A stretch of 64,000 nucleotides of DNA from Catellatospora sp. TT07R-123 (GTDB taxonomy: Bacteria; Actinomycetota; Actinomycetes; Mycobacteriales; Micromonosporaceae), in NCBI RefSeq assembly GCF_018327705.1, contig NZ_BNEM01000001.1, positions 3,100,001-3,164,000 on the forward strand. The letters are read 5' to 3'. Position 1 is the first letter of the stretch. Every line of letters starts with the position of its first letter. Below, one piece after another: positions 1 through 61,915 of the stretch. Both the position numbers and the translations under genes were made by a program. Below the pieces are notes generated by a model, which searched no databases, had not been told where the DNA came from, and saw only the letters and a program-made list of their open reading frames with translations.

Positions 1-3000
1 AGGGCAGGGCCAGCACGACCTTGCCCACGGTCTGGGCGCTGCCCAGGTCCACGGTCAGGGTCTGCGGGAAGCCGCTGCCGCTCTCCCAGTACGTGCCCGC
101 GTTGCCGTCCACGGCGTTGGCGGACGCGTACGTCTGGGTGTGGCTGCTCTCGCTGGTCGTCCGGTTCAGCGCCAGGTCCGGGTTGCCGGTCCCGCCGCCG
201 GTGCCGAGCACCTGGAACTCCGACAGCTGACCGGCGGGCCAGCCGCTGTTGGCGGTGATGTTCAGCCGGACGTAGCGGGCCGACGCGCTGACCGGAATGT
301 TCGCCGTGTTGCCCGTGGCCGGGTCGAACGTGTACGTCGCCGACGGCACCAGCGTGGTGTAGCCGGACCCGTCGGTGCTGCCGAGCACGGACAGCGTCAT
401 GGTGCGGGTGCCCCAGCTCGGCGGCAGCTTCAGCACGACCGAGCTGAGCGTCGCCGCCCCGCCCAGGTCCACCGTGATCTGCTGCGGGAACTGGTTGTTG
501 ACGCTCTCCCAGTACGTGTTGACGTCGCCGTCGACCGCGTTGGCGCCGACGTAGGTCTGCGACACGCTGGTGACCGTCACCGGCTTGCCCTGCGCCAGGT
601 TGCCGGCGCCGCTGATCCCGTTGCCGGACAGGTTGATGGTCAGCGTCGGGTTGGTGGCGTTGCTGCTCACGGTCACCGTGCCGGTCTTCGCCCCCGCCGA
701 GGCGGGCGCGAAGGTCACGTTGATCGTGCAGCTCGCCCCGCCGGCCAGCGCCGTGCCGCAGGTGTTGGCGCCGAGGGTGAACCCGGTGCCCGACGCGGTG
801 ATCGAGGTGAGCTGCGCGCCGGTGGTGCCGGTGTTGGTGACCGTCGCGGTGCGTACGACGCTGGAGCCGACCGCGGTGTCCGGGAAGGACACCGCCGACG
901 CGGTGAGCGTGGCCGGGGACTGGCCCGGGGTGCCGTTGCCGGTCAGCGGCACGGACACCGTCGGGTTGCTCGCGTTGCTGCTGATCGTCAGCGTGCCCGA
1001 GCGCGAACCCGTGGTGGTCGGCGCGAAGACGACGTTGACGAAGCAGTTCGTGTTCGCGGCGATGGTGCTGCCGCAGCTGCCACCAGTGCCGACCGAGAAG
1101 CCCGCCCCCGACGTGGTGATCGAGTTGACGGTCGCGGCGCTGCTGCCGCCGTTGCTGACGTACACCTGCCGGACCACGCTGGACCCGATCGAGGTGTCCG
1201 GGAAGGTGATGCTCGGCGGGCCGACCGACAGCGTCGGCGGGATCGGGTTGATGCCGGTGCCGGACAGGTTGACCGTCAGCGTGGGGTTGCTCGCGTTGCT
1301 GCTGAGGGTGAACGTGCCGGTCTTGGCACCGGTCGAGGTGGGCGCGAAGGAGACCGTGGCGAAGCAGCTCGCCCCGGCCGCCAGGGTGCCCGTGCAGTTG
1401 TCGGTCCGGCTGAACTGCGCCGAGATGCTCGTCCCGGACAGGGTGGCCGCGGCCGTGCCGGTGTTGGTGACGGTCACCGTCACCCCGGGCGTGGTCGTGT
1501 TGATCACGGTGTTGCCGAAGGCGAGGCTCGCGGGCGAGGCCTCCAGGGTGGCGCTGCCGGGCGGCGTACCCCCGCCGAAGATCTGCAGCTCGGAGAGCTG
1601 CCCGGCCGGCCAGCCGGTGTTGGCGGTGATGGTGACCCGGACGTAGCGCACCGACGTCGCGGTGAACGACGCGCTCGCGGTGTTGCCGGTGTTCGGGTCG
1701 AACAGGTAGCCCGCCGACGCCTTCAGCGTGCTGAAGTTGGTGCCGTCGGTGCTGCCCTGGACCGTCAGCGTCTGGGTGCGCGCACCCCACGACGCCGGCG
1801 GCGGCAGCTTCAGCGTCACCGAGCTGACCTGCTTGGCCGAGCCCAGGTCCGCCTGGAGCCACTGCGGGAAGGCGTTGTTGTTCGACTCCCAGTAGCTGCT
1901 GGTGTTGCCGTCGTTGGCGTTGGTCGCCGGGAGGCCGCCGCTGCTGCTGCTGGCGGTCATGGTCGCGCCGACGGCCAGGTTGGTGTTCGGGTCGGCGCCG
2001 GTGCCGGTCAGCGCGACGGTGATCGGCTGCGGCGTGGTCGAGTTGGTCACCGACAGGGTGCCGTTGCCCGCGCCGACCGCGGTCGGCGCGAACCGCACCG
2101 TGACGGTGCAGGAACCGCCACCGGCCAGGCTGACGGGGCAGTTGTTGGTCTGGGTGTACGGACCGGACACCGCGACCGCCGACACCGACGCCGCACCCGT
2201 GCCCGGGTTGGTGACGGTGACCGTCTGCGCGGCGCTGGTCTGCCCGACGGTGACCGACCCGAAGGCCAGGCTGCCCGGGGTGACGGCCAGCGTCGAGTTG
2301 TCCGACACGCCCCGGCCGACGAAGTCGACCCAGTTCACGTTGAAGATCGAGCCCTGGCCGGTGTCACCGGCCGGGTTCTTGGCGATCAGGAACAGCGGCC
2401 CGGTCGCCGTGCCCGCCCCGGAGATCGTGGCGGTGGCGTCGGTGTACGTCTGCCAGCCGCCCGTACCCCCGAAGGTCGCCGTGCCGACCAGCGGCCCGGT
2501 CACGGACCCGGTCCGGATCTCGACCCGCCCGCCGGAACCCGGCGAGGCCACCCGGACGCGCACCGAGTCGATGCCGGTCAGGTTCACCGGGGTGTATGTC
2601 CAGAAATCGCCGTCCTCGATGAAGCCGAGGTTCTGGAACCCGCCCGCCGGGTCGGAGGTCGTCTCCCGCTGCACGCCGGGGTCGCCGCCGCCGATGCCGC
2701 TCGGGGCCCGGCCGGTGCTGTTGAAGAACTCGGCCTGCTTGTGCTTGGGCTGGAGCACCCGCGTCGACCGGCCGGTCTGGGCCCCCACGCCGCCGGGCCC
2801 GCCCTTGTCCGTGTACGTCGCCTCGATCACGCCGAAGGTGTTGGCGTCGTCGCCGTGTCCGGTGCCGAGCGAGGTCTGCACGATGCCCGAGCAGCCGGTG
2901 TAGCTCTGCATCGGGTGCGCGTGCTCGTCGTGGCCGAGGTAGTACTGCACGGTGACCCGCGAGCAGTCGATGGTGCCGTCCTCGGGGTCGGTCACGGTGA

Positions 3001-59476: not shown

Positions 59477-59528
59477 AGACGGCGACGGCCGGGAACGTCC
59501 TCCAGGACGTTCCCGGCCGTCGCCGTCT
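59477..59528. terminator. Strong bidirectional-looking terminator
   Basis: AGACGGCGACGGCCGGGAAC and the following bases pair over 25 bp with the inverse (59504-59528) around a 2-nt centre. It begins 9 bp after the PhyH stop and lies 53 bp from the end of the convergent chaplin-like gene. Confidence 0.9.
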
Positions 59529-59581: not shown

Positions 59582-60493
59582 TCAGTCGATGATCTCCTGG
59601 CCGCCGCTGGTGCACTGGCCGGCGACGAAGGCCGGGCTGCCGATCGGCAGGGCCGGGCCGAGCTGGCCGATCAGGCCCGACGAGGCGCACACCTGCAGCG
59701 GCAGCAGGTCGATGACCTGGTTGCTGAGCAGGGGAACCACCGCGGGCTCGCGCTTGACGATGGCGCTGTTGCTGTTGCGGCAGTCGCCGAGCACGGTCGT
59801 CGGGGACTGCAGCGCCACGGTGGCACCCACCAGACCCGCGGTCGAGCCGCAGACCTGGGTCGCGACCGCGTTCACGACCGAACCGCTGAGCAGGGACACC
59901 ACGCTGCGGGGCTGTTCGCCCTCGGCGGTCTGCTTGGGCGCGGCGATGAGCGTGTTGGCGTTGCTGCAGTCGCCGATGACGGTCGCAGGCGAGTTGACAG
60001 CCGCGGTCACCCCGAGCACGGCGGAGTTCGAGCCGCAGACCTGGATCGGCAGCGCGTTGACCGAGGTGTCGTCCAGGATCGAGATGATCCCCGGCACCTG
60101 GTTCTGCCGGATCAGCACGTTCGCGTTGGCGCAGTCACCCAGCACGGTGTTGGGAGACTGCAGCGCGACGGTGGCGGCGAGCACCTGTGACGAGGCCGCG
60201 CCACAGGTCTGCCATGCCGCCGCGGTGATGGCGGTGCCGGTGCCGATGGAGATGAGCGGCTGGTTCACCTCGTGCTTCGGACCGCGCGCGACGGTGTCCA
60301 CCGCCGCTCGGGCCTGCGTGGCCGCCCGGGCCGTCGCCTGCTGGACAGCCGCCTGCTTCAAGGTGGTCGCAGCGGTGCGTACCGGGTCCGCCGAAACGGG
60401 TCCCGCCACGGGCGCGGCGGCTGCGGCGGAGCCGAACACCGCGACCGTCGCGAGCGCGCCGGCTGCTACGACCCCCGCCTTGCCTATCTGCAT
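59582..60493 (-). CDS. Chaplin-like secreted surface protein, four repeats (paralogue 1)
   Basis: 303 residues from ATG 60493 with AAGGAGAG upstream. Signal peptide MQIGKAGVVAAGALATVAVF...AAAAA. After a basic linker come four units of about 55-60 residues. Each has a hydrophobic start (ISILDDTSVNALPIQVCGS), 22-23 residues between two Cys, and SPxTVIGDCxNANxLI. The pattern (CG...G.C.N) resembles the chaplin domain but with a longer Cys-Cys gap. Chaplins form amyloid-like layers on aerial hyphae and spores. Tandem paralogue of the next gene. No transmembrane segment or sorting signal. Confidence 0.75.
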   Translation of the reverse strand: MQIGKAGVVAAGALATVAVFGSAAAAAPVAGPVSADPVRTAATTLKQAAVQQATARAATQARAAVDTVARGPKHEVNQPLISIGTGTAITAAAWQTCGAASSQVLAATVALQSPNTVLGDCANANVLIRQNQVPGIISILDDTSVNALPIQVCGSNSAVLGVTAAVNSPATVIGDCSNANTLIAAPKQTAEGEQPRSVVSLLSGSVVNAVATQVCGSTAGLVGATVALQSPTTVLGDCRNSNSAIVKREPAVVPLLSNQVIDLLPLQVCASSGLIGQLGPALPIGSPAFVAGQCTSGGQEIID

Positions 60494-60527
60494 CGTCTCT
60501 CCTTGTGGATTCTGGCTTTCCTAAGGA

Positions 60528-60557
60528 AGGGGCGGGTCGCTGGCGCGACCCGCCCCT
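60528..60557 (-). terminator. Terminator between the two chaplin-like genes
   Basis: AGGGGCGGGTCGC pairs with its complement over 13 bp, loop TGGC. It follows the stop of the upstream paralogue and precedes the Shine-Dalgarno of the downstream one, so the two are probably separate transcripts. Confidence 0.8.
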
Positions 60558-60582
60558 GTCTTGCCATGCCGTTGCGACCTGA

Positions 60583-61770
60583 TTAGTCGATGACGGTGTT
60601 GGCGTTGAAGCAGCTGCCGATGACCGTGTTCGGCGAGGTGATCGGCACGGCCGCCGCGATGATGTTCGAGCTGGTCGAACCGCATGACTGCAGCGGCAGG
60701 ATGTTCAGCGAGGTGTTGTCGAGCGCGGAGATGAGGCCCTTCGGGCCCTCCTTGTCGATCTTCACGTTCGCGTTCTTGCAGTCACCGATGACGGTGTTCG
60801 GCGAGGTGATCGGGATCGCCACGCTGATCGCGTCGGGCGAGGTCGAGCCACAGGCCTGCAGCGTCGCGGCCAGCACCGAGCTGCCGTTGAGCGCCGACAC
60901 CAGGCCGAACGGGTCGACGTCCCACGGCGCGTCCCAGCCGCCACCGCGCGCCTGCGGGGCCGCCACGCGGGCCGACTTGCCCATCTGGGCGTAGCCGCCG
61001 CGGGTCTTCAGCGCGGAGACCTTGCTGACCAGCGCCTTGCGGGCCACGGCCGTCGCGTCGACGGTGCCCTCGGTGCGGGCCGACTCCTGCCACTTGCCGT
61101 AGCCGTGCTGCTCGTGGCCGCCCCACTTGTCGTGGCCGCCGCCCCACTGGTCCGAGTCGTTCCAGTCGTGCGACGCCTGGATCTCGACGTTGCCGTTGGT
61201 GCAGTCACCGATCACGGTGTTCGGCGAGGTGACCGGCACGGTGATGCCGACGACCTGGCCGTCGGTCGAGCCGCAGGACTGGACCGTGAGGATGCCCACG
61301 GCCGAGTCGTTGCCGACGCCGATCAGCGGGTAGTTGTCGGTCTGCTTGATCTTGATGTTGCCGTTGGCGCAGGCGATCGAGTCCTCGTCGCCGTAGCCGC
61401 TGTCGTGGCTGTCGGCGACGACGGTGTTGGGCGAGGTGATCGGCACCGAGATGCCGACGACGTTGCCGCTGGTGGAGCCACACTGCTGGAGGGCGGCCAC
61501 GTTGACCACCGTTCCGTCGAGCAGCGCGACCAGGGCCTGGGGGTCCACGTCCCACGGCGCGTCCCAGCCACCCTGCCACCCACCGCGAGCCAGCTGCAGC
61601 TGACCGGCGCCGACCTGGCGCATCGCGCTGTTCTTGCCCTCGGTGAGGGAGGTGGCCTTCGTCAGCGCAGAGGCGTCCATGGTGGGCGCCGCAGCGGCGG
61701 CAGGAGCCCCCATGATCGCCACGGTCGCGAGAGCGCCAGTGGCGACGACTCCGGCCTTCTTCATCTGCAT
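60583..61770 (-). CDS. Chaplin-like secreted surface protein, four repeats with acidic/Trp linker (paralogue 2)
   Basis: 395 residues from ATG 61770 with AAGGAG upstream; the leader is nearly identical to paralogue 1 (MQMKKAGVVATGALATVAI). Four repeats of the form VNVAALQQCGSTSGNVVGISVPITSPNTVIGDC.NAN. Repeat 1 carries an insertion (HDSGYGDEDSIAC). The phrase WDAPWDVDP occurs before repeats 1 and 3, marking an internal duplication of a two-repeat module. The linker between repeats 2 and 3 is rich in Asp, His and Gly (HDWNDSDQWGGGHDKWGGHEQ). The sheath role is inferred from chaplin resemblance. Confidence 0.75.
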   Translation of the reverse strand: MQMKKAGVVATGALATVAIMGAPAAAAAPTMDASALTKATSLTEGKNSAMRQVGAGQLQLARGGWQGGWDAPWDVDPQALVALLDGTVVNVAALQQCGSTSGNVVGISVPITSPNTVVADSHDSGYGDEDSIACANGNIKIKQTDNYPLIGVGNDSAVGILTVQSCGSTDGQVVGITVPVTSPNTVIGDCTNGNVEIQASHDWNDSDQWGGGHDKWGGHEQHGYGKWQESARTEGTVDATAVARKALVSKVSALKTRGGYAQMGKSARVAAPQARGGGWDAPWDVDPFGLVSALNGSSVLAATLQACGSTSPDAISVAIPITSPNTVIGDCKNANVKIDKEGPKGLISALDNTSLNILPLQSCGSTSSNIIAAAVPITSPNTVIGSCFNANTVID

Positions 61771-61915
61771 CGTCACTCCTTGTGCGACTTTGGAACCGAC
61801 TCGCCCAGTACATATCGGGCAGAAGCGGCAAAACACTGCACTTGAGGTAACGATGGGTACATTGCCCAGTTACTACGGCTTTTGACCTTTTGTACGGCGA
61901 TCTTCGCCGAACGGC

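Follow-up and report, generated by a model that had tools for sequence, protein, structure and literature searches.

Chaplins are the water-repelling coat proteins of Streptomyces and the standard example of functional amyloids in sporulating actinobacteria. Within Micromonosporaceae, where the available part of one source describes the study of hyphal and spore coats as only beginning (PMC13251363), the same text presents CwpA and CwpB of Actinoplanes missouriensis as sortase-anchored hydrophobic surface proteins without chaplin domains, proposed to render hyphae hydrophobic, as long chaplins do. The rodlins RdlA and RdlB are a homologous pair of secreted sheath proteins in the accessible part of PMC5314377, and obvious rodlins were reported in streptomycetes only according to that of PMC4255298.

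Our window, the whole stretch of 64,000 nucleotides analysed from Catellatospora sp. TT07R-123, holds two adjacent genes on the same strand, A and then B, that invite comparison with all three systems. Like the rodlins they are an apparently secreted homologous pair, and they come from the same bacterial family as CwpA/CwpB but carry no sorting signal; both likenesses are of description, not of sequence, and no rodlin model appears among the Pfam or NCBIfam matches of A and B. With chaplins (PF03777, covering ChpA-C and the multi-domain Micromonosporaceae proteins) they share a leader, hydrophobicity, domains that mostly have two Cys, a build of several such domains joined by polar linkers, and presence in the same genomes. 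Among the matches listed in a search of the open literature, which leaves subscription papers outside its coverage, no title or start of abstract describes such a pair.

Architecture of genes A and B

Both proteins start with a short basic segment, a hydrophobic one and then an Ala-rich leader, which by eye resembles a Sec signal peptide; judged from it, A and B are apparently secreted. Leaders and ribosome-binding sites of the two genes are near-identical (AAGGAGTGACGATGCAGAT and AAGGAGAGACGATGCAGAT), as an earlier note on this DNA had already read from the sequence. The repeated unit spans about 55 residues and consists of a hydrophobic stretch, the motif Q-x-C-G-S, a segment of 22-24 residues that closes with SPNTVxGD or a similar sequence, and C-x-N-A-N. 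With a profile of this unit, strong matches in the 9.17-Mb genome number exactly eight, four per ORF (E 5.5e-25 to 6.7e-18), and the best match outside A and B lies at E 0.1; the ORFs and these eight copies confirm the two tandem four-unit paralogues of the earlier note. An alignment of units contains 46 of 53 chosen ones, units with Cys gaps >24 and close copies having been excluded from the choice. Coordinates are given in Table 1.

Table 1. Features of the A/B locus (positions within the window)
Feature	Position	Strand	Remarks
Gene A	60583..61770	-	ORF, 395 aa, two didomains (units 1-2, 3-4)
Gene B	59582..60493	-	ORF, 303 aa, paralogue of A, four units, short middle linker
Unit A1	61405..61545	-	profile match to positions 2-48 of 54; insert before second Cys, gap 36
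Unit A2	61180..61338	-	unit profile match
Unit A3	60757..60915	-	unit profile match
Unit A4	60589..60747	-	unit profile match; reaches C-terminus, no sortase signal after
Unit B1	60110..60268	-	unit profile match
Unit B2	59945..60100	-	unit profile match
Unit B3	59759..59917	-	unit profile match
Unit B4	59591..59755	-	degenerate, CAS...GQCTSGG
Conserved element GTAAC-N16-CGTTAC	61847..61873	-	begins 103 bases before A start codon; also inverted repeat
13-bp hairpin between A and B	60528..60557	-	minus 39.3 kcal/mol for 78-nt stretch, z -5.0
Near-perfect inverted repeat, ~50 bases	59478..59527		between convergent PhyH and B ends; below-cut-off Rfam hairpin matches

Each protein has eight Cys in four pairs, with gaps of 36, 23, 23 and 23 residues in A and 23, 22, 22 and 24 in B. 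The gap of about 23 claimed in the earlier note therefore describes seven of the eight units (22-24) and fails in A1 because of its insert; likewise, the uniform CGS...GDC-NAN pattern fits most units and breaks down in B4. The arrangement of eight Cys as four pairs recurs in 32 of the 33 proteins examined, the remaining one being interrupted by a contig end. Among 131 units, the Cys gap is 22-24 in 122 and 36-41 in nine, and the first Cys stands in CGS in 105 and in CGN in one. Aromatic residues average 3% of a unit and charged ones 9%, and with a mean GRAVY of 0.30 against 0.19 the units are roughly as hydrophobic as chaplin domains.

Units 1 and 2, and again 3 and 4, are separated by 30-31 residues in our A and B and by 30-34, mostly exactly 31, throughout the 33 proteins. 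Between units 2 and 3 the distance is 34-40 residues in B proteins and 76-128 in A proteins; in our A, 116 residues lie between the Cys of these units, and the linker is polar and rich in His, Asp, Trp and Gly. A nearly fixed spacing on the outside and a middle linker that differs argue that each protein consists of two didomains. The motif WDAPWDVD introduces each didomain in our A, and WDAPWD or a variant does so in its homologues. No sortase signal of the form L[PA]xTG was found in the last 60 residues of any of the 33 proteins, a set that includes the one truncated at a contig end, and 28 of the 33 end 8-9 residues past the last Cys.

Chaplins and the one-unit proteins of two other families

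Family libraries return little for the pair. For A, neither Pfam nor NCBIfam gives a match up to E 1; in Pfam, B has three matches (E 0.11-0.4) far under the cut-offs, and single units give chance matches only (20 against Pfam, 46 against NCBIfam); PDB searched by sequence gives no match. The chaplin model PF03777 matches neither A nor B up to E 1 and none of 20 single units scanned, and the A/B locus is not among its matches in the own genome at E 10, a result that fits the separate class for which the earlier note had proposed this check. Direct comparison of unit and chaplin profiles with hhalign gives a probability of 1-1.5, with 19 of 100 shuffles scoring as high or higher, and the reversed unit profile outscores the real one against chaplins (13.3 vs 11.6). 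By the tests run, the unit itself is not a chaplin domain.

The domains also differ in build. Where the Cys gap of the units is mostly 22-24 and their first Cys mostly in CGS, Micromonosporaceae chaplin domains have a gap of 13-17 in 85 of 85 cases (the earlier note had put it at about 18, which proves too long) and CGN in 66 of 85, these domains having been taken by pattern from fetched loci, as were the f88 and f103 sets introduced below (85, 35 and 26 rows, respectively), so that all three are biased towards those patterns. GN motifs number zero in 94 units, one in 26, two in 10 and three in one (n=131), whereas two or more occur in 70 of the 85 chaplin domains. On these counts the units depart from the three GN motifs 12-13 residues apart that define a chaplin domain in the available text of PMC13251363; two Cys per domain they do have in common with chaplins. 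A and B further stand apart by the SPNT-x-GDC-NAN end of the unit, by four units per protein at a single locus and, relative to the long chaplins, by the lack of a C-terminal LPXTG-type sortase signal. A short ES[AS] linker motif is shared by A and chaplins: in the form [TQEKRH]ES[AS], a pattern chosen post hoc, it occurs in 8 of 17 A proteins, 15 of 31 family chaplins and 0 of 16 B proteins, against expected numbers of 0.4, 0.7 and 0.2.

At other places on the chromosome, the own genome encodes two multi-domain chaplins that pass the PF03777 cut-off (G000:C1:4541027-4541731 and 4372546-4373631; loci L017 and L018). Both end directly after a chaplin-like domain with Ser at the Cys places; a sortase signal, as in the long chaplins of Streptomyces, is not visible in either. 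Five domains per protein were counted, by pattern, in the Micromonosporaceae chaplins of L068, L083, L093 and L094.

An order-level search with the unit profile (298 genomes) retrieved the own genome and 10 genomes of another family, here f88, with one to six matches each; single matches in G200 and G659 were discounted as noise, neither strand holding a unit-like Cys pair. The f88 proteins are short and leader-bearing, with the pattern DNDGINxLNDNNISxxPVQLCGNNVAVLG...SPQ...CVNAPxVDHP and a Cys gap of 20-21 in 35 of 35. An f88 alignment contains 21 of these 35 rows. A profile of the f88 proteins matches 18 of 60 genomes of family f88, finds our own protein B at E 7.1e-8 and, at class level (296 genomes), reaches a third family, f103, in 11 genomes: nine carry four matches apiece, the other two a single one. 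The usual ending of the f103 proteins is VPILSPQTTGDCVNGP; their Cys gaps are 21-24 in 23 of 26 (23-24 in 20 of the 26), and their domains are on average not hydrophobic (GRAVY -0.15). Some f103 genomes (e.g. L141, L142, L145) contain up to four tandem leader-bearing genes of ~85 codons with very similar mature parts, so arranged as a tandem cluster, while f88 genes are scattered or in small neighbour groups. Both families share with the units the core Q-x-C-[GN]...SP...C-x-N and, unlike A and B, have one ~55-residue unit per protein; the earlier note's picture of a unit repeated four times per protein thus holds for A and B and does not extend to these relatives.

Profile comparisons connect the three groups. 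Unit against f88 gives an hhalign probability of 96 and a score of 41.7 vs a shuffle maximum of 19.1 (0/100), and f88 against chaplins a probability of 95-96 and a score of 39.0 vs 16.8 (0/100), the reversed profile being beaten too. Probabilities are 96.8 for unit against f103 and 98.5 for f103 against f88 (0/60 shuffles in each case). PF03777 accepts one of four f88 proteins (22.7 bits, cut-off 21), gives a score of 13 to two more and leaves one without a match. For f103 the comparison with chaplins is not significant (probability 12; one of 60 shuffles as high) and none of four proteins scanned matches PF03777, so the tie of the units to chaplins runs through f88 alone. Given the unit-f88 and f88-chaplin matches, the unit probably belongs among the relatives of chaplins, as a divergent, multi-unit form linked to them in two steps. 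The description in the earlier note as chaplin-like yet a separate class is partly supported: the missing library model and the two-step link fit it, and direct profile similarity to chaplins is not significant.

A different account of the same matches would make unit, f88 and f103 a family of their own, in which short Gly/Ala/Val/Asn-rich sequences converged on a chaplin-like form around one disulfide, a surface coating being still possible. The non-significant direct match, the general absence of GN motifs and the different Cys spacing would suit such convergence. We nevertheless consider it unlikely: the f88-chaplin score stays above the reversed profile and above every one of 100 column shuffles, one f88 protein clears the Pfam cut-off, and the core around the first Cys is common to the unit-f88 and f88-chaplin alignments.

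Distribution, gene order and upstream region

Among 250 sampled Micromonosporaceae genomes the unit profile matches 25 at E 0.01. Six of these are weak single matches (E 1e-3 to 1e-2: G008, G078, G098, G131, G173, G191) and were set aside as noise, with no unit-like Cys pair on either strand. The 19 strong carriers comprise 11 genomes of the same genus, the own one included, and eight from five other genera (G009, G017, G039, G042, G054, G061, G080, G094), of which G054 has a single four-unit protein instead of the pair; these counts refer to sampled genomes, and carriers may escape them. Protein A matched eight Catellatospora records, all with the pair, which are also among the 11 genomes, so that the counts overlap. 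Across the phylum (396 genomes) the only matches are the own genome and G505, the latter rejected for an internal stop and the lack of a unit-like Cys pair on either strand. Phages and plasmids gave no match, and two PHROG matches (E 0.003 and 0.08) are unsupported: no phage matched, and three single domains searched by themselves had no PHROG match either.

Gene order is conserved. In the eight Catellatospora loci lepA-NUDIX is followed by the pair and then by PhyH, a hypothetical gene, enoyl-CoA hydratase and hemN, the last visible in seven because L014 stops within the hydratase. G009, G017, G042, G061 and G080 have the same order; of the other carriers, G039 has the locus divided between two contigs, G094 stops inside PhyH and G054 has no NUDIX or PhyH match. 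When the lepA neighbourhood was read in 14 genera without the pair (leaving out G024, whose lepA is close to a contig end), ten had the hypothetical gene, the hydratase and hemN after lepA, with neither A nor B; the remaining four show lepA and NUDIX only (L215) or lepA only (L218, L219, L222). For 113 of 131 units, the best match in another genus is the unit of the same position (label shuffles: mean 32, maximum 49). This position-by-position matching implies that the 4+4 layout predates the split of these six genera (Catellatospora and five others).

Chaplins accompany the pair, as the earlier note would have it: PF03777 matches occur in 19 of 19 unit carriers vs 136 of the 250 sampled genomes (Fisher p 9e-6, with kinship ignored and 11 of the 19 from one genus). 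Strong unit matches are absent from 231 of the 250, and 117 of these have chaplins, which indicates that the pair is dispensable in Micromonosporaceae at large.

All 17 loci have the element GTAAC-N16-CGTTAC upstream of A; it begins 100-103 bases ahead of the start codon in 16 of them and 117 ahead in one, and five of 16 B genes have a copy of their own (G009, G039, G061, G080, G094). We take it to resemble the -35/-10 pair of an ECF-type (ECF-sigma) promoter; as an inverted repeat it could instead be a candidate protein site. For comparison, MtrA sites are described as direct repeats in the accessible part of PMC5650626. The own genome has three exact matches, the two others not before recognisable surface-protein genes, and 20 matches at <=1 mismatch vs 18 for a reversed-pattern control. 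One exact match is directly followed by a tandem run of the heptamer GGGCAGC (L180, G000:C1 near 4586857). An 18-base box after the element upstream of A has one exact and two 3-mismatch matches in the genome, equal to the control. A regulon shared with chaplins was considered and rejected, as the 300 bases upstream of each own chaplin gene contain neither the element nor a looser site. Just past the second chaplin gene, on the opposite strand (L018:3227-3296, minus), there is a looser GGAAC-N18-CGTT followed by a 3-mismatch copy of the 18-base box.

When folded, the 170 bases preceding B form an unbroken stem run of at least 12 in 16 of 16 loci, and those preceding A do so in two of 17; the hairpin before B is there both with and without an own B element. 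In our locus the 13-bp hairpin between the genes is a possible partial terminator, which would stop part of the transcripts after A and let others read through into B where B has no element. The inverted repeat beyond B is a likely two-way terminator; it drew most of the 11 Rfam matches, all under cut-off.

Function of the pair

On balance, and with modest confidence, we favour A and B as secreted, non-anchored cell-surface structural proteins that would act in the manner of chaplins. Once exported, every unit of ~55 residues would close one disulfide (Cys-22..24-Cys) and present short hydrophobic strands; two units a nearly fixed 31 residues apart would act as a didomain, and two didomains per protein would provide multivalent building blocks. 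Such blocks of A and B, perhaps joined by true chaplins, may co-assemble to give hyphae or spores a water-repelling layer, with the A-B hairpin setting the ratio of A to B. We infer this coat function, as well as disulfides, strand structure, assembly and timing of expression, from features read directly in the sequences: the signal-like leader, the units with their conserved Cys and pairing, the orthologous position, the lack of a wall anchor, the element and the hairpin. Structure prediction of the repeat, proposed in the earlier note, yielded no fold (pLDDT 32-35): AlphaFold2 gave no usable model for the didomain (pLDDT 31.7; 23 of 25 rows, the first A didomain excluded for its insert) or for B (34.8; 7 of the 9 Catellatospora proteins), and at these values strands in the models are no evidence.

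The same features could also belong to a secreted adhesin or extracellular-matrix protein that forms no water-repelling layer, its disulfide-closed units binding a cell-wall polymer, a soil polysaccharide or a metal and their four-fold repetition giving avidity. The repetition, the polar His/Asp/Trp-rich linker of A, the leader-like start and the missing wall anchor would all be in keeping with this, and some chaplins are reported, in the available part of PMC4255298, to help mycelial attachment. Aromatic and charged residues are, however, few for what would be a sugar or metal site, and no library or PDB sequence match points to one, so that we judge binding as the main role to be quite unlikely. 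Very improbable, finally, is an antimicrobial or competitive role, in which the one-unit relatives and their fused four-unit versions would be secreted peptides that have one disulfide in each unit. The small, leader-bearing, Cys-paired products of f103 (four matches in 9 of 11 genomes and, where read, tandem ~85-codon genes) might suggest it, but the single conserved locus, the 4+4 layout and the f88 link to chaplins are opposed to it, and the eight neighbours compared include no gene for immunity, transport or modification.

A broader form of the coat reading, which we put forward tentatively, would see a long-gap branch of the chaplin superfamily, for which the libraries searched have no model, spread over three actinobacterial families, with one-unit proteins, tandem one-unit genes and fused four-unit pairs in one family each, the fused Micromonosporaceae pair forming, alongside true chaplins, a second hydrophobic sheath under its own promoter. 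If true, a family without a model that joins chaplins with multi- and one-unit secreted proteins would widen the chaplin superfamily. Two adjacent genes at one locus are clear deletion targets, and with position, layout and upstream element all conserved, the question lends itself to direct testing.
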